Shown piece by piece: positions 946 to 55,400 of a stretch of 64,000 bases of DNA (position 1 is the first letter of the stretch; each line of letters opens with the position of its first letter). A program made the position numbers and the translations under genes. Origin of the DNA: Sphingomonas jejuensis (GTDB lineage: Bacteria; Pseudomonadota; Alphaproteobacteria; Sphingomonadales; Sphingomonadaceae); contig NZ_JAATJE010000001.1 of assembly GCF_011927695.1 (NCBI RefSeq), positions 1,302,001-1,366,000 on the forward strand. Reading direction: 5' to 3'. The notes beneath the pieces were generated by a model. The model did no database searches. It was not told the origin of the DNA and saw only the letters and a list, made by a program, of their open reading frames with translations.

Positions 946-2715
946 ATGCTGAAGCTTGCCGATCATCCATCCGTGCGCCAGACGTTTTCGATGGAGTCCG
1001 CTGTTCCCGTGCACACCCCGACGGATTGCGCGCTGGCGCGTCGCTTCTCCGACTTCGCGACACTTGGCGAGGCGCTCGACTACGCTGCCGGCGGCACCCG
1101 CGGGTTCAATTTCCACGATGCGCGCGGTCAGCTGGTCCGGCCCTACAGCTTTGCGGCCATGCGAACTGATGCGCGGGATCATGCGCTCCGCTTCATCGCC
1201 GCCGGCGTCGCGCCGGGCGATCGGGTCGCGTTGATCGCGGAAACCGGCGCAGACTTTGCGGCGCTGTTCTTCGGGGCCATCTACGCCGGTGCTTGGCCGG
1301 TGCCGCTGCCCCTGCCGACCTCCTTCGGGGGCGCGTCGGCCTACGTCGATCAGCTTGGCGTCCAGCTCGACAGCTGTGATCCGGTCATGCTCATCCACCC
1401 GCCGGAACTGACGGCGATGGCGGGCGAGGCGGCGCGTCAGCGCGGCGTCCCGGCGCTGGACTGGGACGGCTTTTCCGCGCTGGAGGCCCCTCAGGCCGAT
1501 CTGCCGTCCTTCGGTCCGGACGACATCGCCTATCTCCAATATTCCAGCGGCTCGACCCGCTTCCCGCACGGCGTTGCGATCACCCATCGCGCCCTGCTCA
1601 GCAACCTGGCAGCGCATGGTCATGGCACCGAACTGCGCGACGGCGATCGCTGCGTGTCCTGGCTGCCCTGGTATCACGACATGGGGCTGGTCGGCTGCAT
1701 GCTGTCGCCGGTCGCCAACCAGGTGTCGACCGACTATCTGCGGACCGAGGATTTCGCGCGCCGTCCGCTCGCCTGGCTCGACATGATCAGCCGCAACAGC
1801 GGCACCACCCTCTCCTACTCGCCGACCTTCGGCTACGATATCTGCGCGCGCCGGCTGTCCAGCCAGACCCGCAGCTTTGATCTGTCGCGCTGGCGCGTCG
1901 CCGGGAACGGCGCCGACATGATCCGCCCGGACGTGATGGAAGCCTTCACCGCGGCCTTCCGCGACTCCGGTTTTGATCCCAAGGCGTTCCTCCCAAGCTA
2001 CGGTCTGGCCGAAGCCACGCTGGCCGTATCGCTGATGCCGCCGGGCGAAGGCATCGTGACGGAGATGGTGGACGAATCCGTCCTCTCCGGCGTGCCGACG
2101 CCGCCCGGAGAAGCGCCGCGCCAGCGCGCGATCGTCAACTGCGGCCGACCGGTCAAGGACATGGCGGTGGAGATCCGCAGCCCCGCCGGGCAGCCGCTTC
2201 CCGACCGAGAGATCGGCCGGCTGTGGTGCAAGGGTCCGTCCGTGATGGTCGGCTATTTCCGCGATCCGGAAGCGACGGACGCCTGCCTGGTCGACGGGTG
2301 GCTGGACACCGGCGACATGGCCTACATGTCGGGCGGCTACATCTACATCGTCGGTCGCGCCAAGGACATGATCATCATCAACGGCCGCAATCATTGGCCG
2401 CAGGACATCGAATGGGCGGTTGAGCAGCTTCCCGGCTTCAAGCCCGGCGACATCGCTGCTTTCTCCATGACGGCGGCAAACGGCGAGGAGGTTCCGGCCG
2501 TTCTGGTGCAATGCCGCACCAGCGACCCGGAGGAGCGGCTCCGCCTGCGCGACAGCATCCGCGACACCGTGCGCGCGGTTACTGGCCTCAATCCGGTGGT
2601 GGAGCTGATCCCGCCGCGCACCCTGCCCCGCACCAGCTCGGGCAAGCTGTCCCGCGCCAAGGCGCGGACGCTCTACCTGTCCGGAGAGATCGAGCCCTAC
2701 GCGCACGCCGCCTGA
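946..2715 (+). CDS. Fatty-acyl-AMP ligase (FAAL-type adenylating enzyme)
   Basis: 589 residues of the ANL adenylate-forming superfamily. The ATP-binding P-loop is YLQYSSGSTRFPHGVAITH (about residue 196), followed by WLPWYHDMGLVG and SYGLAEATLAVS, typical of the FAAL branch. The C-terminal hinge region has DGWLDTGDMAY and an RAKDMIIINGRNHWPQDIE stretch, where FAALs carry N-H-W-P rather than the usual acyl-CoA ligase wording. FAALs activate fatty acids to acyl-adenylates, usually for transfer to a carrier protein or polyketide/peptide synthase. The start is backed by GGGAGG 8 bases upstream. No carrier protein or synthase gene lies next to it, so the acyl acceptor is unknown. Confidence 0.85.
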   Translation: MLKLADHPSVRQTFSMESAVPVHTPTDCALARRFSDFATLGEALDYAAGGTRGFNFHDARGQLVRPYSFAAMRTDARDHALRFIAAGVAPGDRVALIAETGADFAALFFGAIYAGAWPVPLPLPTSFGGASAYVDQLGVQLDSCDPVMLIHPPELTAMAGEAARQRGVPALDWDGFSALEAPQADLPSFGPDDIAYLQYSSGSTRFPHGVAITHRALLSNLAAHGHGTELRDGDRCVSWLPWYHDMGLVGCMLSPVANQVSTDYLRTEDFARRPLAWLDMISRNSGTTLSYSPTFGYDICARRLSSQTRSFDLSRWRVAGNGADMIRPDVMEAFTAAFRDSGFDPKAFLPSYGLAEATLAVSLMPPGEGIVTEMVDESVLSGVPTPPGEAPRQRAIVNCGRPVKDMAVEIRSPAGQPLPDREIGRLWCKGPSVMVGYFRDPEATDACLVDGWLDTGDMAYMSGGYIYIVGRAKDMIIINGRNHWPQDIEWAVEQLPGFKPGDIAAFSMTAANGEEVPAVLVQCRTSDPEERLRLRDSIRDTVRAVTGLNPVVELIPPRTLPRTSSGKLSRAKARTLYLSGEIEPYAHAA

Positions 2716-9073: not shown

Positions 9074-10414
9074 TCAGCGGCTGCCCGGGACGATCGCTGC
9101 CGCGTCGCGGTCCGGGATCGAGGCCCCGGCAACAACAGTGTGGAGCTGCGCCGGAACCGTCTCAGATGGAGCCGTCAGCAACGTCCAGCCCTCCGGCAGA
9201 TAGTCGGTCGACATATAGAAGTAGAAGGCGCAGCTCCCGTCCGCGCGGTAACTGCCGCCCTTGACGATGCCGTGCGCGGTGGTGCCCAGGAAGACCGGGC
9301 CACCGCTGTCCCCGCCCCTGCAGCGTGGCCCCGCCACCGTGATCCATGTCGGAAGGCACGCGCCCGCGCACAGGTCACCGGCGGGTGCGAAGTCGGTCAA
9401 CTCGATCTGCGAACAGCTGTAGCCGGTCCGTTCGCCACGGTGGCAGATCATGTCGCCGCCCCTTGTGCTCGCGCGCGGCTGCGCGCCGGTCACGTCGCGG
9501 CTGATCAGGCGTGCGGTATCGGCAAGGAAGCGGGGCGGCAGCGGCGTCTCGGCAAGGTTGACCTGAACATCCTGGTGCCCCCAGCCCCACTGCCCGACAA
9601 AGGGCAAAGTCCGCTCGCGCCCTGCCGCGTCGCGGACGCGCAACACGTCGGGGCAATGCGCCGCGGTGGTCAGCGCAAGCCGCACGCCGTCGCTGACGAC
9701 GAAGCCCGCGGTGCACAGATATTGGCGCGGATCACCCGGGTTCGCGCCCAGCATCCGCATGCCGCCGACCACCCCGCTTTCCCCGGTGTCCTCGCCGCTC
9801 ATGTCCAGTTCCGACCGATCGACGACGCGCAGGCGTACGGGGACGCCGGTCAGCGACGAAAGTCGCACCCGCAGCGGCTCCGCACCTTCGCGTGCGACGT
9901 CGCGCCGCGCCACCACCGCGACAAGCTCACCGGTGCGCTGATCGATGCCGAGGCCCGGCGGAACCGCCAGGCTCGCCCGGATTGCTGCCTGATGGGTGGA
10001 GATCGCCTGCACCATGGCGGCGTGGCTGGCAGGATTGCCGACGACATAGACGACGTCGACGCGCATGCCCGCAAGGTCGACCTGCTCGGCCGGCACCGGC
10101 GCATCGCCGGTTAATCGCACCACGATGCGAAAGCCCGGGCGGTGCTCGACAGAAATGCCGGTCAGCCGATCCGCAAACCGTCTGGCGATCGCCTCGGTCA
10201 GCGGCACGCTCGCCTGCTGGAGCCAGAGCTGCCGTTCCGCCTGCTCCGCCGTGATTCCAAGATGCAGCGCGACGGCCTCGGCATCCTGCCTCAAGGCAGC
10301 GTCGGGCGGCTGCACCGTAAACAACGGTGCCGACGCAGCTCCCTGCGCGCCGGCGGCGCTCGCCCAGACCGTCATCCATGCCGCAACCGCGGCAGCCCTG
10401 ATCCACCGTTCCAC
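9074..10414 (-). CDS. Secreted chymotrypsin-fold serine protease
   Basis: 446 residues with an N-terminal signal peptide (cut near AGAQG). About 200 residues follow that could be a pro-domain, then a protease domain with the triad visible: His in TTAAHC (253), Asp in GHQDVQV (282) and Ser in GGDSGGP (370). Paired cysteines (C324/C334, C349/C353) suggest disulfides and export. This resembles the S1 family, alpha-lytic/streptogrisin group. It is the last host gene before the left attachment repeat. The natural substrate cannot be inferred. Confidence 0.85.
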   Translation of the reverse strand: MERWIRAAAVAAWMTVWASAAGAQGAASAPLFTVQPPDAALRQDAEAVALHLGITAEQAERQLWLQQASVPLTEAIARRFADRLTGISVEHRPGFRIVVRLTGDAPVPAEQVDLAGMRVDVVYVVGNPASHAAMVQAISTHQAAIRASLAVPPGLGIDQRTGELVAVVARRDVAREGAEPLRVRLSSLTGVPVRLRVVDRSELDMSGEDTGESGVVGGMRMLGANPGDPRQYLCTAGFVVSDGVRLALTTAAHCPDVLRVRDAAGRERTLPFVGQWGWGHQDVQVNLAETPLPPRFLADTARLISRDVTGAQPRASTRGGDMICHRGERTGYSCSQIELTDFAPAGDLCAGACLPTWITVAGPRCRGGDSGGPVFLGTTAHGIVKGGSYRADGSCAFYFYMSTDYLPEGWTLLTAPSETVPAQLHTVVAGASIPDRDAAAIVPGSR

Positions 10415-10865
10415 GCAACCACTATAGCGCGGCCGCGTGGCTGACGGCTTAATGAGACGTCCGGCGCGTCGGCATGGCTGCTCGACCCTCGAGCCAAGGA
10501 CATCAGGTGCCGGGCGGCTGAAGCCAGATCAATCGTGTGAACTGCGGCGCCGGTCGCCGCGGAGGACCGGCGGGACTGCGCTCATGGTGCCGCCTACAGG
10601 ACTCGAACCTGTGACCCCCGCATTACGAACGAACCGGACAGCTAGGTTTTCAGCCATTCTAGCGGCGGGCGTGACTAGTCGAGGCAGGCTTAAACCCGCG
10701 TAAAACCGTGCCCTGATCCGGCCAACACCGGAGCGGCACCGGACCAGCGCCACCACCGACATCAGCCCCAAACGGGGCCATCCGCCATCACGAGCGCACG
10801 GCTGCGAACGCCTCTGCAGCCGGCGCTTTCGTGCGCCCATCGACTTCCGCCCGGGAGCCGAATTG
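10415..10865. other. Intergenic region holding the left attachment site
   Basis: 451 bases without a supported gene. The first part (to 10584) is host DNA between the protease promoter side and the junction. The prophage side (from 10630) contains the likely integrase-binding arm. I see no convincing ORF; short open frames here are antisense to the tRNA remnant. Confidence 0.5.
10585..10629. repeat. attL: 45-bp tRNA-Thr 3'-end duplicate
   Basis: Identical over 45 bases to 55415-55459 and diverging immediately outside (A versus G on the left, C versus T on the right). It carries the T-arm, the 3' acceptor strand with encoded CCA and the 3' half of the anticodon stem, but no 5' tRNA half. It is therefore the leftover of integration, not a gene. 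Confidence 0.93.
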
Positions 10866-11879: not shown

Positions 11880-12395
11880 ATGACCGACGTCGAAAACGGT
11901 GCCGAAAGGCTGCAGCTTGCCTTCAGGCGATTAGCCGTCTGGCCGGAAGATGAGGCTCGGATCCTCCGCGACATCTTCTCCGGGTTCGCGCGCCGTCGGA
12001 AGAAGCCCGGAAGCTCGGCCCGCGCTTTCCCGGCGCAAGCCGAGACCTGCTGGGCATGGCTGATTACGACAGATATCCGCATGTCCGACAGCGGCGTGGC
12101 TTGGCAGGCCTTCCGCAGCTTCAGGCGGCTGACGATCGAAACGGTGGCGGAGGAGCTTGTCTGCACGCGCGGGACGGCCGCTGCCAACGTGCATGCGCTC
12201 GTCGATCATGGCTTCGCAGAGAGAAGAATGGCGGGCCTCGTCGGCGAGGTGAGGCTTATGATCCCTGTAGCGGCCATCGTGGAATTCGTGGCCGATCTCA
12301 CGTCCGACGGTCGATCCCTGCGCTACGCGATCGCGACAGAGCGGTTGAGATCAGCACTTACGGACGAGTTCCATCGGGATCTGCCGTCCCGCTGA
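11880..12395 (+). CDS. MarR-like winged-helix regulator
   Basis: 171 residues. The central part, RLTIETVAEELVCTRGTAAANVHALVDHGFAERRMAG, looks like a helix-turn-helix plus wing of the MarR sort. The N-terminal half is basic around RRRKKPGSSARAF. It runs toward, and overlaps tail-to-tail by 38 bases with, the P4-type integrase on the other strand. Because of that pairing it may regulate the integrase or a lost cargo region. The target is unknown. Confidence 0.5.
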   Translation: MTDVENGAERLQLAFRRLAVWPEDEARILRDIFSGFARRRKKPGSSARAFPAQAETCWAWLITTDIRMSDSGVAWQAFRSFRRLTIETVAEELVCTRGTAAANVHALVDHGFAERRMAGLVGEVRLMIPVAAIVEFVADLTSDGRSLRYAIATERLRSALTDEFHRDLPSR

Positions 12396-13587
12396 GCATC
12401 TCGCCCCAGGCATCGAACAGCCGGCGGCGTCGATCGAGCTGCTGAGCGCGGTTATACGCCGCCTCCACCTTGTCCTTCGGCGAGTGCGCCAGCGCGCGGT
12501 CGATCGCATCGCGCTCGCCGGGCAGCGCCTCGTTCAGGATCGTGGAGAAGCTCGCCCGCCAGCCGTGCGGGACGTGGCGGCCGGCGAACCGCGTCCGCGC
12601 GTAGAGCGCGCCAATCGCGGCCTCGCCGATCGGCGCGGCCCCGCAGCGGCCAACGAAGATCAGGCCATGCATATTTGCATCGGCACAATGCAGATTTGCA
12701 CGCGCTGCACGCAGGACGGCCACCGCGGCGGCGCTCAGCGGGACGACATGATCGTGGCGGGCGTCGCCCTTCTTCGCCACCGCCAGCTTCATGCGCGCGG
12801 CCGGCACGCGCCAGATCGGCTCGGGTCCGTCGAGATCCTCGATCTCTTCCCACCGCGCGCCGCGGACGGCGGCCAGGCGGACGGCGGTCAGCGCCAGGAA
12901 GCGCGACGCCAGCTTCACCGCGGCGCCAGCGTCGACCAGCTCGGCCGCGGCGAGCAGCGCGCGAACGTCGTCGAGCTCGAGCAGCGCCGGCTGGTGGCGC
13001 TTGCCCGCCGGCGGCAGCAGCGCCTTGCGGACGATCGCCGCCGGATCACCGGCGACCAGATCCTCCGCCATCGCCAGCGCGAAAACGGCCGAGATCCGCT
13101 GGCGCAACCGGCGGGCGGTCTCGATCGAGCCGCGGCGCTCGACGTCGCGCAGCAGCTGCAGGACGACGGGCGCGTCGATCGCGGCGATCGGCGAGGCGCC
13201 GATCGCGGGGAAGACGTCGCGGACCAGGCTCGATTCGACGTCGACAGCGTGAACCTCGGTCCACCGCCGGCGCTGCTGCGCCATCCAGCGGCGCGCGACG
13301 GCCTCGAAGGTCTCGGCCGACCGGGCCCGATATGCACGTGCGCGCGGATCTCTCCCGGCGGCGAGCTCCGCCCGGGCGGTGTCGGCCTGCTCACGTGCAT
13401 CGACCAGCGACAGCTCCGGCCAGGTGCCGAGCGTCAGCAGCTGCTCCTTGCCCGCCCAGCGGAACCGCAGGCGGAAGGATCGGGTGCCGGTGGTTGCCGC
13501 GACATGGACGTGGAGGCCCTGCCCGTCGGTCAGCTTATAAGCGGACGCACGCCGTCGGGCGCCACGGATGGACGCTTCTGTCAGCAT
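12358..13587 (-). CDS. P4-type tyrosine integrase (second integrase)
   Basis: 409 residues from ATG 13587 (MLTEASIRGARRRAS), with a GAGG ribosome site upstream. An N-terminal DUF4102-like arm-binding domain (KLTDGQGLHVHV, LTLGTWPELSLVDARE) is followed by a core-binding and a catalytic domain. Catalytic residues visible are Arg in LTAVRLAAVRGARWEE, His/Arg in HGWRASFSTILNE, His in ALAHSPKDK and Tyr in AAYNRAQQL. All look intact. It is the opposite strand and the opposite end from the integrase next to the right attachment site, so it probably belongs to another element nested in or fused to the prophage. Confidence 0.85.
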   Translation of the reverse strand: MLTEASIRGARRRASAYKLTDGQGLHVHVAATTGTRSFRLRFRWAGKEQLLTLGTWPELSLVDAREQADTARAELAAGRDPRARAYRARSAETFEAVARRWMAQQRRRWTEVHAVDVESSLVRDVFPAIGASPIAAIDAPVVLQLLRDVERRGSIETARRLRQRISAVFALAMAEDLVAGDPAAIVRKALLPPAGKRHQPALLELDDVRALLAAAELVDAGAAVKLASRFLALTAVRLAAVRGARWEEIEDLDGPEPIWRVPAARMKLAVAKKGDARHDHVVPLSAAAVAVLRAARANLHCADANMHGLIFVGRCGAAPIGEAAIGALYARTRFAGRHVPHGWRASFSTILNEALPGERDAIDRALAHSPKDKVEAAYNRAQQLDRRRRLFDAWGEMLSGTADPDGTRP

Positions 13588-13692
13588 CGGTGCCTCATGA
13601 TGTTGGAAAATGGGCGCGACTGCTCGACCGCGGCGGAGGTTTCGTCCGTCGCGGTGGAGCAGCAGGCGCGGAAATGCGCGGGATCGAGGCGG

Positions 13693-13719
13693 TCGGCCGG
13701 GGCGCGTTACCCCGGCCGA
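13693..13719 (-). terminator. Strong hairpin after the methylase gene
   Basis: TCGGCCGGGG (13693-13702) and CCCCGGCCGA (13710-13719) form a perfect 10-bp stem with a 7-base loop, starting 6 bases beyond the methylase stop. There is no T run on either strand, so it may act as a barrier or mRNA 3'-end stabiliser rather than a full intrinsic terminator. Confidence 0.5.
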
Positions 13720-13724
13720 TACCC

Positions 13725-14516
13725 TCACCTGTTGCAGATGATCAGCTCGGTGACCCGCTGCTGGGTGGCGACGTTCCGGGCTCCCAGCGTCCAGGTCGTC
13801 GCGATCTCCTCGATCGCGAAGGCTGCGAAGGTCTCGCGGATGAAGTCGGTGGCGTTGATCGACAGGATGAACTGTCCGCGGATGGTGGCGAGCTGCTCGG
13901 CCATCGCGACATAGTCGCTGCGGCCGAAGTCGATGCCGTAGCCCTCCGTCTGGTCGTAGGGCGGGTCGAGATAGAACAGCGTCCGCGGATCGTCGTAGCG
14001 GGCGAGCACCTGGTCTTAAGGCAGCTGCTCGATCGTCACCGGCTGCAGCCTGGCGCTGAGCGCTCGCAGATCGGCGCGCAGCTGCGGGAGGTTGAAGCGG
14101 GAGCTCTGGTCCTTCCGCAGGCCGAAGGTTCGGCCAGCGACGCGGCCACCGAACGCGAGCCGCTGCAGGTAGAGGAATCGGACCGCCCGCTCGATGTCAG
14201 TCAGCGTGGTTGGATCCACGCGTTTCATCCGGTCGAACTCGGCCCGGCTCGCCACCAGGTCGCTCATCTCGTCGACGAGCGGCTGATAGTGCCGGCGGAC
14301 GATCCGGAACAGGTTGGCGACGTCGCCGGACAGATCGTTGATGACCTCGGCCGTGGCGGCGCGCGGCCGGCGGAGGAAGACGCCGCCCATGCCGACGAAC
14401 GGCTCGACATAGGCCCGGTGGGGCGTGGCATCGATCAGAGCGCACAGCCGCTTGGCCAGGTTGCGCTTGCCGCCGATACACGGCGCGGGAGGACGAGCAG
14501 CGCTCGACGCGGTCAT
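13725..14516 (-). pseudogene. DNA adenine methylase (Dam/D12 class) interrupted by one in-frame stop
   Basis: The reading frame runs as 166 residues (MTASSAARPP to TIEQLP), then TAA at 14018-14016, then continues in the same frame as DQVLARYDDPRTLFYLDPPYDQT to the end. The first part has the SAM-binding motif VEPFVGMGGVFL, the second the catalytic DPPY. In the family LP is normally followed by one residue and then this helix, so the stop replaces a single codon. No bases are gained or lost. As written the protein would be inactive because DPPY is lost. A GTG at 14009 could start the fragment, but without the SAM site. Confidence 0.85.
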
Positions 14517-14895
14517 TCTGGGCTTTCCTTCTGGGAGAAAGCACGTCGGCTACGCGCGCTGAGTGGCCGTCGGCCGGACTGGACGACGGTGCCCGCGCCG
14601 ATCGGCGCGAGGTTCGATGGCTTCGGAGTAGCTCCGAAGGGATCTGATGATGCTGGTGGCTCGGGGAATACGCTAGCGAGAGGCCTGTCGATCCCACCCG
14701 GCGGACCGGGTGGTTAGCCGCGCAGCCTTAGGCATCTGCGCCCCGCGTATTCCCCGAGAGGTCTTTTATTCCGCAGGCCACCCGGCGAACCGGTAGGCCT
14801 AAGGACCGCGCGCGCGGGCCACTCCTCGCGGCTAAGCTCGGAGCAGCTCAGCCGGCATGGCACGCTCATGGCGCGTCGTCGAGATGGTTGTCGGC
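14517..14895. other. Hairpin-rich noncoding block
   Basis: 379 bases without a credible gene but packed with perfect inverted repeats. They are a 16-base palindrome (14594-14609); an 8-bp stem with 3-base loop (14621-14639); 14-bp arms at 14660-14673 and 14745-14758; an 8-bp stem with 4-base loop inside them (14694-14713); a 6-bp stem (14720-14725/14736-14741); a compound stem (14775-14800); a 12-base palindrome (14806-14817); and a long-range pair TTAGCCGCG (14714-14722) with CGCGGCTAA (14827-14835). The 20-mers at 14694 and 14778 are near-copies. It lies between co-directional minus-strand genes, so it would be transcribed as RNA if late transcription passes through. Confidence 0.65.
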
Positions 14896-15477
14896 TTAGG
14901 GCAGGTCACCGGCGGCGATCTGCTGCGCCTGGCGGTGGTAGCTCTCGATCAGGCTGAGCGCGTCGGCGATCGCGTCCTCGCTGCCGGCGGCAGGCGCGAA
15001 GACGGCGTAGTAGGCGCGCAGCTGCTCGCCCTGGATCTGCCACAGCGCGATCGGCCAGCGATGCTGGCCGGGATCGGCGATCGTCGGCAGCGGCTCGCCC
15101 GGGCCGACCTCGAGCCGAAAGCCGAGCTCTTCGAACCGCGGTTGCCACTCCGTGAGCAGGGTGGCTGGATCAAGCGGGCTGATCTCGGTCGGGATCGGTG
15201 GCTCCGGTGCAGGATCCGGCGCCGGCGGCTCCGGCGTCGGCTCGGGATCCGGCGCCGGCGGCTCCGGCGTCGGCTCAGGATCTGGCGCCGGCGGCTCTGG
15301 TACCGGATCAGGCGCCGGCGGCTCCGGCTGCGGCTCCGGTGCCGGCAGATCGGGCTGCGGCGTCGGCACTGGATCGGGCGCCGGCGTCGGGATGGTCGGC
15401 GGGGTGATGTCTGCGATGTTGTCGCAGGCCGATGCTCCGCAGAGCAGCAGCAGGATGATCAGCGGCAGGCGCTTCAT
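14896..15477 (-). CDS. Phage lipoprotein with Pro-Glu-Pro repeat linker
   Basis: 193 residues. Lipoprotein signal MKRLPLIILLLLCGASAC (Cys 18), then about 70 residues of imperfect repeats of the PEPPAPDPEPTP kind, then a compact C-terminal domain from about residue 100 (LLTEWQPRFEELGFRL to YHRQAQQI). The start overlaps the Rz1-like stop by ATGA, so it belongs to the lysis/late operon. The proline-rich stretch probably spans the periplasm as an extended rod. No family name comes to mind. It could help lysis or act as an envelope-modifying moron. Confidence 0.65.
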   Translation of the reverse strand: MKRLPLIILLLLCGASACDNIADITPPTIPTPAPDPVPTPQPDLPAPEPQPEPPAPDPVPEPPAPDPEPTPEPPAPDPEPTPEPPAPDPAPEPPIPTEISPLDPATLLTEWQPRFEELGFRLEVGPGEPLPTIADPGQHRWPIALWQIQGEQLRAYYAVFAPAAGSEDAIADALSLIESYHRQAQQIAAGDLP

Positions 15478-15746
15478 CGTGCGGTTTCCTTCGGGAAAGC
15501 GTCGACGGCGAGGCGACGGCGAGCATCGCAGTCGGCGATCGCCGCGGCACGATCGATCAGGCCGCGCTCGGCGCCAGCGCGCGACACCGATCCATCGGGA
15601 TCAGCGAGGAGCTCGGGGATCATGCAAGGCAGCAGCGCCTTGGCCGGGATCTCTGGCGGCGGCGTTGAGCTCGGCATCGAGGGCCTGGATACCGCGCACG
15701 CGCTCAGCAGGCAGGCACAGCTCGCGGCCAGCAGGAGTCTCAGCAT
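15474..15746 (-). CDS. Rz1-like outer-membrane spanin lipoprotein
   Basis: 90 residues. Lipoprotein signal MLRLLLAASCACLLSAC with Cys 17 in an LSAC box and a Pro/Ser-rich stretch just after. It starts inside the upstream Rz-like gene in another frame (146-base overlap) and extends beyond it, as in many overlapping Rz/Rz1 pairs. Outer-membrane spanins pair with the inner-membrane partner to fuse the membranes in the last lysis step. At 90 residues it is longer than lambda Rz1. Frame nesting plus lipobox make the call. Confidence 0.7.
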   Translation of the reverse strand: MLRLLLAASCACLLSACAVSRPSMPSSTPPPEIPAKALLPCMIPELLADPDGSVSRAGAERGLIDRAAAIADCDARRRLAVDAFPKETAR

Positions 15747-16011
15747 ATCGGGTCACCGTGTCGGTTGCGCGGACGACGATCGGCGCGATGCGCGCGACCT
15801 TGTCGGCATAGGTTTGGACGGCCGCGGTCACGCGCCGCTCCGCCGCGACGCGGACCTCGGCGTTCTCGCGCTCGGCCTCGGCCTGGGCCTCGTGCCAGGC
15901 GGCACGCTCCTCCAGGCGCCCGGCCTCCTCCCGCGCGTCACCGAAGCGCAGGAGGAGGAAGACGATCAGCGCGGTTGCTACCGCGCCGATCGCCAACCGG
16001 CCCCAGGTCAC
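15601..16011 (-). CDS. Rz-like inner-membrane spanin
   Basis: 136 residues from GTG 16011, which overlaps the holin-like gene stop by GTGA. One N-terminal membrane helix (AIGAVATALIVFLLLRF) is followed by a charged coiled-coil (DAREEAGRLEERAAWHEAQAE), the usual i-spanin layout. The C-terminal third shares DNA with the Rz1-like gene. It should span the periplasm and bind the lipoprotein partner during lysis. Confidence 0.7.
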   Translation of the reverse strand: MTWGRLAIGAVATALIVFLLLRFGDAREEAGRLEERAAWHEAQAEAERENAEVRVAAERRVTAAVQTYADKVARIAPIVVRATDTVTRYAETPAGRELCLPAERVRGIQALDAELNAAARDPGQGAAALHDPRAPR

Positions 16012-16403
16012 GCGATCGGACGCGCGGTCGGACGGAACAGCAGCGTCAGGACGGACACCACCGCCAGGATGCCGCTCAGCACGGTGGCTTCATCAAAGCC
16101 GGCGGGCAGGAAGCCAGCGACGCCGGCGATCGCCGCGCCGGCGCTGACGACCTGGGCCCAGATCGTCTTCGACTGCCACCAGGCCTTTCCGCCCAGCTCG
16201 GGATCGAGCTCGACGATCGGTCCCGAGATCTGCAGGCGGCCGATGATGGTGACGGCGGCGAAGGCGAACATCGCGACGGTGACGACATGCGTCTCCTCGA
16301 GACCCGCCGGCACCAGGCCGAACATGCCGAGGATGGCAAAGATGAGCGCCACAAACTGGACGAGGGCCAGACGCGACGCGAAGATTGCGGAAAGGAAGGT
16401 CAT
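16008..16403 (-). CDS. Holin-like membrane protein
   Basis: 131 residues with about four hydrophobic segments: LVQFVALIFAILGMFGLV, HVVTVAMFAFAAVTII, VVSAGAAIAGVAGFL and VLSGILAVVSVLTLLF. The small size, several membrane spans and position directly before the spanin pair suggest a holin. Sequence alone cannot prove pore formation. A short gap and a 56-residue gene separate it from the wall-active enzyme upstream. Confidence 0.6.
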   Translation of the reverse strand: MTFLSAIFASRLALVQFVALIFAILGMFGLVPAGLEETHVVTVAMFAFAAVTIIGRLQISGPIVELDPELGGKAWWQSKTIWAQVVSAGAAIAGVAGFLPAGFDEATVLSGILAVVSVLTLLFRPTARPIA

Positions 16404-16480: not shown

Positions 16481-16651
16481 TCAGCGCCGGCGGTCGGCCG
16501 CGCGCTGCTTGGCTTCGGCGACGAGCTGCTCGGCTTCGTCATCGGACATCGGCTTGCCGGTCACCGCTTCGAACAGCCATTGAGCGACCTTGCGGCCATC
16601 ATAGGTCTGCCCGTCGGGATTGCGCGCGAAGTCGTGCAGGTTCTTCTTCAC
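16481..16651 (-). CDS. Small phage protein, 56 residues
   Basis: GTG start at 16651 overlapping the preceding gene's stop by GTGA. The peptide starts MKKNLHDFARNPDG and ends EAKQRAADRRR, with an acidic/basic helix (SDDEAEQLVAEAK). The overlap and clean length make it a real gene, but I recognise no family. Its place between the Tlde1-like enzyme and the holin suggests a lysis-linked helper. Confidence 0.55.
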   Translation of the reverse strand: MKKNLHDFARNPDGQTYDGRKVAQWLFEAVTGKPMSDDEAEQLVAEAKQRAADRRR

Positions 16652-17025
16652 TCGACCACCCGCAGATCGCGGTCGCCGGAGCGCCACATCTGCTCGCGGA
16701 TCGCCCGCGGCAGGATGATGCAGCCCATCGATGCCGTGCCCGGCGCCTTGATGCTGTCGCCGTGGATGCGGAAGGCCGAGCGGCCCGTCGCGTCGTGGCG
16801 ATCGTCGGCCGTGCCGTCCTGCGCGTGGACGGTGATGGCGAACGGGCCGACGCGCTTGGAATTGTAGACGCCGACCAGCTTCCAGTCGCCGCGCGGAATC
16901 GGGCCGACCGCCTGCAGGTGCTGCATCGACGGGTTGTTCTTGCCCCGGCCTTTGCCGGAATAGCCGCGCGAGACGAGCTTGCCGTTGTGGCGCAGCTCGC
17001 CGGCGGCCTGGTGCCAGGTCCACAT
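16648..17025 (-). CDS. DUF2778/Tlde1-like L,D-transpeptidase-fold protein (putative endolysin)
   Basis: 125 residues covering one DUF2778 domain. It has WTWHQAAGELRHNG at the start, VGPIPRGDWKLVG, and the catalytic cluster FRIHGDS and SMGCIILP (His and Cys of the L,D-transpeptidase type). Tlde1 proteins act on peptidoglycan tetrapeptides as carboxypeptidase/exchange enzymes, best known as type VI secretion effectors. Here the gene sits in a lysis cassette beside a holin-like gene, so it may be the phage wall-degrading enzyme. No lysozyme or amidase is visible nearby. The domain call is firm, the endolysin role inferred. Confidence 0.75.
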   Translation of the reverse strand: MWTWHQAAGELRHNGKLVSRGYSGKGRGKNNPSMQHLQAVGPIPRGDWKLVGVYNSKRVGPFAITVHAQDGTADDRHDATGRSAFRIHGDSIKAPGTASMGCIILPRAIREQMWRSGDRDLRVVE

Positions 17026-52826: not shown

Positions 52827-53081
52827 TGAGCGATTTGACAAACGCACGTGCTGAGAGCAGCTTCCGGACCGTCACCGCGCAGATGGCGGTGATGCGGGAT
52901 GAAAGCCGCCTCAGCGAAGCGCCCCAAGGCGCGCCAGCTTATGCTGCGCGCCTTTCTCTATGGTCGGGCGTGCGGGGTCCCTTCGGGGGCGCCGCTTGCT
53001 TCGCTGCGGTCTTTCAACCCGCGCGTCCGGCCACCAGGTTGAAAGCTGTTGGTCGGACTTACTCAAGCGGAGTGAGCGACC

Positions 53082-53342
53082 ATGGCTATCGAGCACGGGC
53101 GGACGAACCGCCTCGCCCCCGACCCGGCGGGCAACCATTACATCATCAGCGAACAGGTCGAGTACGAGCTGCGAATGCTCGCCGAGGCGATGCGAACCAT
53201 CGCCGAATTATGCGACGGCTTCGAAGAGGAGCGGGCAGAGATGACCGTCCTTCAATTTGGTCCGCTGTTTCACGTCTTTGCGGAGCGCGCCGCCTCCCTC
53301 ACTGCCGAGAGCACAATGCCGCCTGGGCGGCGGATGTCATGA
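53082..53342 (+). CDS. Early phage hypothetical protein, 86 residues
   Basis: MAIEHGRTNRLAPDPAGNHYIISEQVEYELRMLAEAMRTIAELCDGFEEERAEM; GGAG 8 bases upstream. The core looks helical. The gap before it (52827-53081) carries a perfect 9-bp inverted repeat (53011-53019/53037-53045) and a possible 47-residue ORF (52899-53042) that I do not call. Confidence 0.55.
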   Translation: MAIEHGRTNRLAPDPAGNHYIISEQVEYELRMLAEAMRTIAELCDGFEEERAEMTVLQFGPLFHVFAERAASLTAESTMPPGRRMS

Positions 53343-53893: not shown

Positions 53894-54237
53894 TGACGAT
53901 CCCCTCAATCGTCCGTCTTGACCAGCGCCTAAGTCGCGCTGCCGAGATCGGAAAAGGCATCAGGCTTGAGGCAGCCGACATCGAGCTTCTCGGCCGTCTT
54001 GGTCTCTTCAAACTCACCGGCGACGCAAAGGCCGACTTTCTCAAGGATCAGACCACATGGCGGGACGCGAGACGCCGCTCTATCGAAGGGGCAAATACTG
54101 GCTCGGGTGGGATGAGCGGCGGGACGGGACCCGTCGGTCTCCCTTCCTCACCACCTTCTGGTACGACCCCGCCGCGGGACGCGTCCGAAGCGCGTCAACG
54201 GGGACGGCGTCCGAGGACGAAGCCATCCTCGCTTTAG
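53893..54237 (+). CDS. Small protein before integrase, possible excisionase-type
   Basis: 114 residues from ATG 53893 (MTIPSIVRLDQRLSRAAEIGKGIRLEAADIELLGRLGLFKL), overlapping the integrase start by 181 bases. The helical LGRLGLFKLTGDAKADFLKDQ part is compact; the C-terminus read from the integrase overlap is disordered. Excisionases are often encoded immediately before int, but no classical Xis motif is seen. Confidence 0.5.
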   Translation: MTIPSIVRLDQRLSRAAEIGKGIRLEAADIELLGRLGLFKLTGDAKADFLKDQTTWRDARRRSIEGANTGSGGMSGGTGPVGLPSSPPSGTTPPRDASEARQRGRRPRTKPSSL

Positions 54238-55400
54238 ATCGGCGCTACCTTGCCGATTCCAGCGAGGCGCCGGCGTTCTGCGGCGCCTGCGGACAGCCCC
54301 TCGCCCAGGCGGCCGCCTACCTGCTGACCGACGCGATCGCCGACTATCGGCTCGAGTGGGGAGACGCGCGCGCGTCGGGCGACACGATCGAGGCGCGGCT
54401 GAAGCACGTCCAGGACTTCCTGGATGCCGAAGAGGCTCGCGGGGCGGAAGGTCGCTTCGGCATCGCCACGAGCTGCGCGGCCGCGTGCACGTCGACCTTC
54501 GTCACCGCGTTCCGCGCCTGGTCGCATCGTCAGCCGGTGGTCTGGAGGAACGGCGTAGGCCAGATCACGGTGACGAAGCCGCGATCGCCGGCATCGACGG
54601 AGGCGGCGATCGCGCAGGTCATCGCCGTGCTGAACCACGCGGCCAACGCGGATCCGCCGCGATCGGACAAACGCCCGACCTATCGGCCGCTGCCGCCAAA
54701 ACAGGTCCAACGGACGAGGCGCACACGCATCGGCATCGAGGAGCTCGCGCGGATGGTCGCCTACGCGGCCGAGCCGGACAAGCGCCGTGGCGCGCTGCAC
54801 GCCTTCATGGTCGCGTCGATCTGCACGATCGCGCGGCCGGGTGCCGTGGTGGACATCTGCGTCGCACCCGATCGCGGGCAATGGGCGTCCGGATCTCCGA
54901 CGATCGACCTCAACCCGGCCGGACGCGTCCAGAACAAGAAGGCGCGTCCGGTGCTTCCGGTGTTGCCGCTGCTGGACCAGTGGCTCTCGGCCGAGCTGCT
55001 CGCCTACCAGGCGCTTGCGGAGGAGGATCGCGTCGGGCGCGGCTTCCTCGTCAACTACTACGGCCGACCGGTCCAAAGCGTCGACAGCGCCTGGGCCGCC
55101 ATGCTCCGCGAGCTGCAGCTGCCGACAGGGCGGGAGTGGCGCCCCTACGTGCTGCGGCACAGCCTGGCGACGCTCGTGCGCAACCGCGGCGCCGAGGCAT
55201 GGGATCTTGAAGGCTTCATGGGGCATCGCCTCCCGAGCCAGACCGAGGTCTATGCACGCGGCGATTTTCTGAGCGTCCAGCGGGCGCTCCAGACCATCAT
55301 TGACGAGATCGAGCGGCTGGTGCCGGGCACGTTGCACCGGACCGGCACCGGAGCCGCCTCGCCCCTCAAGCGGAAGAGGGGAGCCGAAATGCCCGGATAA
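54057..55400 (+). CDS. Prophage tyrosine integrase
   Basis: 447 residues. The N-terminal two thirds hold arm and core domains; the catalytic part shows Arg in ASICTIARPGAVVDICV, Lys near NKKARPVLPV, His/Arg in YVLRHSLATLVRNRG, His in GFMGHRLPSQTEV and Tyr in TEVYARGDF. The gene ends 14 bases from the tRNA-Thr, in the usual int-attachment arrangement. It presumably catalysed integration at the 45-bp core. Confidence 0.9.
   Translation: MAGRETPLYRRGKYWLGWDERRDGTRRSPFLTTFWYDPAAGRVRSASTGTASEDEAILALDRRYLADSSEAPAFCGACGQPLAQAAAYLLTDAIADYRLEWGDARASGDTIEARLKHVQDFLDAEEARGAEGRFGIATSCAAACTSTFVTAFRAWSHRQPVVWRNGVGQITVTKPRSPASTEAAIAQVIAVLNHAANADPPRSDKRPTYRPLPPKQVQRTRRTRIGIEELARMVAYAAEPDKRRGALHAFMVASICTIARPGAVVDICVAPDRGQWASGSPTIDLNPAGRVQNKKARPVLPVLPLLDQWLSAELLAYQALAEEDRVGRGFLVNYYGRPVQSVDSAWAAMLRELQLPTGREWRPYVLRHSLATLVRNRGAEAWDLEGFMGHRLPSQTEVYARGDFLSVQRALQTIIDEIERLVPGTLHRTGTGAASPLKRKRGAEMPG

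Follow-up and report, generated by a model that had tools for sequence, protein, structure and literature searches.

The region studied here lies in a prophage of Sphingomonas jejuensis, within a 64-kb stretch of DNA that was analysed as a whole (the window). A 45-bp sequence from a tRNA 3' end is repeated perfectly at 10585 and 55415; this repeat marks the prophage and probably corresponds to attL and attR, and the same prophage is present in IMG/VR as a 43-kb provirus (L028). Tyrosine integrase-like ORFs are found near both prophage ends (12358-13728, minus strand; 54057-55400, plus strand). Along the minus strand, lysis-type genes are followed by a lipoprotein-like ORF, the element described here, a gene for a D12-class methyltransferase (dam), and a tyrosine integrase gene (Table 1). 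The Tlde1 domain (PF10908) of one lysis-region ORF is known from a T6SS effector, and the ORF is possibly used as a phage endolysin. Tandem repeats of 33 bp (15163-15414) in the lipoprotein-like ORF encode a proline-rich PEPPAPDPEPT stretch. The dam gene of the window is split by an in-frame TAA (14016-14018), which may reflect a pseudogene, a sequencing error or a programmed event; the dam homologue hits of related Sphingomonas loci contain no stop codons.

Table 1. Features of the element and of the neighbouring prophage genes (positions in the window)
Feature	Position	Strand	Remarks
Core of Xcc1/C4-like RNA (P1+P2+P3)	14704..14787	minus	RF02221 31.9 bits, full length; model R1; 23-sequence consensus fold
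P1 stem	14786-14778 with 14713-14705	minus	
P2: conserved AAUAnAAgACC...GGGGAAUACGC internal loop plus hairpin	within 14704..14787	minus	
P3 stem	14741-14737 with 14724-14720	minus	
b', hypervariable P3 loop GCCUAAGG, putative antisense seed	14726..14733	minus	complement of 14797-14804
b1 CCUUAGGC, directly 5' of P1, perfect P3-loop complement	14797..14804	minus	pseudoknot strand or upstream target
a' CGCGGCUAA, P3 3' strand plus P3-P1 linker	14714..14722	minus	9-bp complement of 14827-14835
a1 UUAGCCGCG, upstream complement of a'	14827..14835	minus	9-bp long-range pair of the initial annotation
Hairpin/palindrome CCGCGCGCGCGG (6+6), between a1 and b1	14806..14817	minus	retained in relatives
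Hairpin CCACCCGGUCCGCCGGGUGG (8/4/8)	14694..14713	minus	5' strand doubles as P1 3' strand
Type-A downstream arm GCGUAUUCCCCGAG	14660..14673	minus	perfect 14-bp complement of core 14745-14758
Leader hairpin (8/3/8)	14621..14639	minus	relatives: other sequences, hairpin at similar place
Leader hairpin/palindrome CGCGCCGAUCGGCGCG (8+8)	14594..14609	minus	relatives: GCCGATCG...CGATCGGC type
Conserved dam-leader segment GCGCGCGTAGCCGACGTGC with second TAGCCG	14541..14559	minus	TAGCC/TAGTC there in 18/19 loci
D12-class (Dam-type) methyltransferase, N-terminal part	14016..14516	minus	PF02086, E 8.5e-15
D12-class (Dam-type) methyltransferase, C-terminal part	13725..14009	minus	PF02086, E 1.2e-4
Tyrosine integrase	12358-13728	minus	beyond dam
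Proline-rich lipoprotein-like ORF	14896-15477	minus	upstream of element
Small lysis-region ORFs	15474-16403	minus	
Lysis-region ORF with Tlde1 domain (PF10908)	16648-17025	minus	

An initial annotation of the DNA had described a single dense cluster of repeats at 14517-14895. Every repeat that it named is present at its coordinates, including the near-copies 14694-14713 and 14778-14797, which are identical at 17 of 20 positions. Three perfect stems of at least 8 bp occur in the region, compared with a mean of 0.10 in dinucleotide shuffles (none of 300 shuffles reaches three). Folding of both strands, which the annotation had proposed, favours the minus strand, whose folding energy has a z-score of -3.59 (none of 100 shuffles is as good) versus only -1.66 for the plus strand. 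However, 40 of 1273 overlapping 379-nt tiles of this GC-rich window match the region's count of 7-bp hairpins, and an equal or lower folding z is reached by 2 of 64 tiles. Since such hairpin density is not unique in the window, related sequences had to decide: density by itself would not set the region apart, but its homologues do. The homologue check that had been suggested shows that paired changes preserve the stems in many phages. A plus-strand RNA was rejected, given its weaker fold and lack of homologue support.

The supposed single cluster resolves into a core of ~84 nt, an upstream pseudoknot strand, and arms and hairpins in the dam leader. Because the 5' strand of the hairpin at 14694-14713 is also the 3' strand of P1, these two pairings compete. 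The hairpin at 14806-14817 has the counterpart CCCCGCGCGGGG in two relatives (L039 and L048). GATC enrichment in the dam leader was considered as a sign of methylation feedback and rejected, as GATC is not above the genome background of 12.2 per kb.

According to the initial annotation, the region resembled no nameable RNA family. An Rfam search of 14517-14895, which it had also proposed, yields no family at the gathering threshold, and none of 15 related loci tested reaches any Rfam cut-off at the element. At a relaxed threshold, sRNA-Xcc1 (RF02221) aligns over its full length to minus-strand positions 14787-14696 with 31.9 bits (E 0.0016), below the curated cut-off of 53 bits, and the element has the P1/P2/P3 architecture with the AAUAnAAnACC...GGGGAAUA motif. 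The claim of no resemblance is therefore wrong: the element is a sub-threshold relative of sRNA-Xcc1 with the layout of C4 antisense RNAs. A covariance model of 42 sequences, none of them from the Sphingomonas branch (model R1), has the element as its best match in the window (14787-14704, 32.2 bits, E 3.4e-5) and recovers all 23 other loci of that branch. Its only other match in the window, an insignificant one to the C4 RNA of the same prophage (52962-53028, 10.6 bits, E 5.4), fits a shared layout and proves nothing.

In the R1 training alignment, 13 of the 19 predicted pairs of P1, P2 and P3 show paired changes. Within the Sphingomonas branch, variation is seen at fewer pairs (4 of 22 change on both sides), but P1 and P2 contain G-U wobbles, as expected for RNA rather than DNA. 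Judged by sequence and predicted fold, the RNA of the window is a distant relative of sRNA-Xcc1 and C4 antisense RNAs. The idea of a structured phage RNA or regulatory leader is supported by homologous stems with paired substitutions and wobbles, a fixed strand, and the place before dam.

BLAST of the region against GenBank phages gives chance-level matches only (E 0.4), and a whole-region DNA search of 100 relatives matches the core alone elsewhere, in L002, with short hits to 286-331. Low-scoring RF02221 hits in L018-L023 and L026 (a tRNA and others) were set aside as chance, and L051 (Bacterium BMS3Abin03) was dropped as a chance pattern match without P1. CRISPR and integron attC readings found no support.

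Pattern searches on the conserved internal loop return 42 loci with a first pattern; a broader pattern hits at least 120 stretches of viral sequence. Among the matches listed, 148 P1-bearing elements are unique by sequence key; a few share a locus or are near-duplicates, so ~145 are distinct. A start codon lies at +60 to +110 in 105 of the elements among these matches. For these 105, the P3 loop and the P3-P1 linker were compared with the 45 nt before the element's own start codon and with the corresponding 45 nt of other elements, and a duplex score of at least 7 is reached with 86% of own flanks versus 13% of exchanged ones. The usual pair of duplexes joins b' to a segment covering or touching the Shine-Dalgarno sequence, and a' (often UUUCGAA) to the segment just before it. 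Cruder complementarity tests with wide flanks gave only a weak signal, as chance matches are common in GC-rich flanks, and were replaced by these position-limited tests.

Most of the genes that follow these RNAs are antirepressor genes. The Pfam families among 115 next-gene proteins from the matches listed include KilA-N (19), Bro-N (16), Phage_pRha (12), AntA (11), P22_AR_N (9) and ORF6N (7), where one protein may carry two of the antirepressor domains, and 4 of the 115 are SymE toxins. The P3 loop at the Stenotrophomonas SymE loci has its partner 5' of P1. Antirepressor-linked loci that were sampled score above the RF02221 cut-off. The element precedes ant in the GenBank phage Rac-SA53 (KU052037), lies near KilA-N genes in Vibrio phages, where one record annotates sRNA-Xcc1, and matches a stretch of Smp131 that overlaps a gene annotated as anti-repressor. 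As two segments complementary around the Shine-Dalgarno sequence constitute the C4 layout, sRNA-Xcc1 looks like a C4-type RNA for antirepressor control. A link of sRNA-Xcc1 to antirepressors or Shine-Dalgarno sequences was not found in the openly readable literature that names it (subscription papers lay outside the search). The 88-nt sRNA-Xcc1 was mapped in 2010 in Xcc, where it was described as acting in trans and many targets were predicted (PMC2996969), and it is discussed as a possible virulence-linked trans-acting sRNA in Xanthomonas and Xylella (PMC2996969, PMC12189769). In EHEC, it is expressed, with 40293 reads and a very low ribosome coverage value of 0.02 (PMC5331693).

In the Sphingomonas branch, the P3 loop coevolves with b1. 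Perfect or near-perfect b'/b1 pairing of 7-9 bp is present directly 5' of P1 in 19 of 19 elements, compared with 2.3% when partners are exchanged, and nearly every duplex is different among the 19 Sphingomonas phage elements. There are 3-5 pair types per position in a set of 22 sequences; because these were selected for at least 7 pairs, the exchanged control is the proper test. The CGGCUA/UAGCCG pairing of a' and a1 is kept in the group, and since a1 (UAGCCG) is nearly invariant, covariation hardly bears on it. A b' target in the dam leader was rejected, as complements occur in 1 of 19 loci versus 17% after exchange. The direct C4 mechanism, in which the target's ribosome-binding site is covered, is therefore not seen in this branch. 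The second TAGCCG, in the conserved dam-leader segment, is a possible a2 target.

A type-A arm is carried by 12 of 19 relatives. It spans 9-15 bp and complements the core sequence CUCGGGGAAUACGC, its 4 or 5 C lining up with 4 or 5 G of the core. The other seven relatives have a type-B arm against CUGCGCGGCUAACC instead, and both arms compete with the core fold. In nearly all loci of the branch, a Dam-type methyltransferase gene lies at +180 to +250 on the same strand, encoding proteins 52-71% identical to that of the window, and an integrase gene lies beyond dam in most loci that extend that far. One locus, L036, has the RNA without dam beside it. In L044 (element 2117-2141, minus strand), a cytosine-C5 methyltransferase-like ORF with a PCQPF motif is located between the RNA and dam, suggesting that a second methyltransferase entered behind the same RNA.

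The element shares with sRNA-Xcc1 the features that the full-length alignment reveals, but its P3 loop pairs upstream and not with a downstream Shine-Dalgarno sequence, it has an extra downstream arm, and the next gene encodes a DNA methyltransferase. C4 antisense RNAs (RF01695; phages P1 and P7) likewise have three stems, lie 5' of a phage gene, and carry two antisense segments, a' in a linker and b' in the third hairpin, with partners on the same transcript. The C4 b' loop occludes the ribosome-binding site and a' binds upstream of it, after processing by RNase P (PMC5320573). C4 is cut from a longer transcript and represses the translation of an antirepressor. Unlike C4, the element of the window has a different internal-loop motif, no adjoining antirepressor gene, and partners upstream of the RNA rather than at a target ribosome-binding site. 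The C4 covariance model has no match between 14600 and 14900, even when E values of up to 10 are admitted.

The CI RNA of satellite phage P4 has complementary sequences on both sides with which it pairs, seqA upstream and seqC downstream, and it causes premature termination (PMC4825925). The element resembles it in layout, with complements both upstream (b1/a1) and downstream (arm A or B) in the leader; P4 CI controls replication genes, whereas dam follows here. The c4-a1b1 motif (Weinberg et al. 2010) is similar by name, as a C4 variant with a1/b1 target sites, and is listed for gamma-Proteobacteria and phages (PMC2864571). A true C4 antisense RNA (59 bits) lies in the same prophage at 52956-53038 on the plus strand and has a/b complements of its own; downstream of it, GGUUGAAAG complements its linker CUUUCAACC, and an 86-aa ORF starts at 53082.

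We consider it probable, at roughly 60%, that the minus strand of 14517-14895, as the leader of a prophage dam(-integrase) operon, specifies a C4-type antisense RNA belonging to the wider sRNA-Xcc1 group. This leader would sit at one end of the late region of the Sphingomonas prophage. By analogy with C4 and P4 CI RNA, the RNA would be cut out of the leader transcript. It could then bind other copies of that transcript on either side of the element, at a1/b1 upstream and at sites downstream, much as seqA and seqC are used in P4. In the lysogen, such pairing would reduce or abolish the transcription or translation of dam, and the sequence of the P3 loop may set the phage-specific specificity. 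Several observations count against this proposal. The hypervariable b1/b' pairs could simply belong to a structural pseudoknot whose strands drift with compensating changes, b' lacks a complement in the dam leader, the RNA of L036 has no dam, the dam of the window is broken, and neither a sigma-70-like promoter nor an intrinsic terminator was found for the element.

The main rival, which we regard as somewhat improbable, is a cis-acting pseudoknotted attenuator in the dam mRNA leader, where b1 and b' are structural and the downstream arms switch between two folds; sequence alone does not separate it from an antisense RNA. The location of b1 and b' on one transcript, always matching (19 of 19), would suit such a leader, as would the competition of both arms with the core fold and the position before dam. 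However, the core in most relatives has partners around the Shine-Dalgarno sequence of the next gene, as C4 does, family members are made as separate RNAs of ~88 nt (PMC2996969), complements at the Shine-Dalgarno sequence as well as 5' are found in L010 and L069, and L036 retains the RNA without dam.

An unlikely alternative is an sRNA that acts in trans on other phage or host targets and precedes dam merely through the synteny of related phages. The published view of sRNA-Xcc1 as trans-acting with many predicted targets (PMC2996969), the locus with the RNA but no dam, and the missing b' complement in the dam leader fit this possibility, but the 64-kb window holds no further copy of the P3-loop 8-mer or of its complement, and dam follows the RNA across quite diverged phages. 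It is highly improbable that the palindromes act at the DNA level, in a site for recombination, packaging or replication, the first two of which the initial annotation had entertained without later support. The region is palindrome-rich and, within the prophage, lies ~4 kb from the left attachment repeat (10585), but the wobbles and compensatory changes across relatives, the strand fixed relative to the downstream gene, and the clear kinship to expressed RNAs argue against it.

The antisense reading would give sRNA-Xcc1 a simple and testable role as a C4-like antisense leader that silences phage antirepressor (and SymE-like) genes. The Sphingomonas branch, missed by the Rfam cut-off, would then be a case in which this RNA device has come to precede a DNA methyltransferase operon and to pair with a partner upstream instead, so that experiments could directly test whether phage DNA methylation is under RNA control. 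More tentatively, as something possible rather than probable, the whole sRNA-Xcc1 family may control antirepressors in temperate phages, with a C4-like build but a distinct core, and Sphingomonas phages may have turned it into a P4-CI-like silencer of the methyltransferase(-integrase) operon in the lysogen, whose rapidly changing loop makes it specific to each phage. If true, this would be an RNA-based immunity determinant that acts on phage DNA methylation.

Some loci of the wider family have more elaborate arrangements. Two Xcc1-type elements (matches at 9963 and 10059, minus strand), ~95 nt apart, precede one antirepressor gene in L106, and five tandem copies of sRNA-Xcc1 are reported in Xylella (PMC12189769). 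At one phage locus (L096:2422-3753), isrK, C4 and sRNA-Xcc1 are consecutive, and a second isrK-C4 pair is found further on. In L010 and L069, the Shine-Dalgarno sequence that complements the P3 loop belongs to a small secreted or lipoprotein-like gene, and it could compete with the complement 5' of P1 for the one loop.
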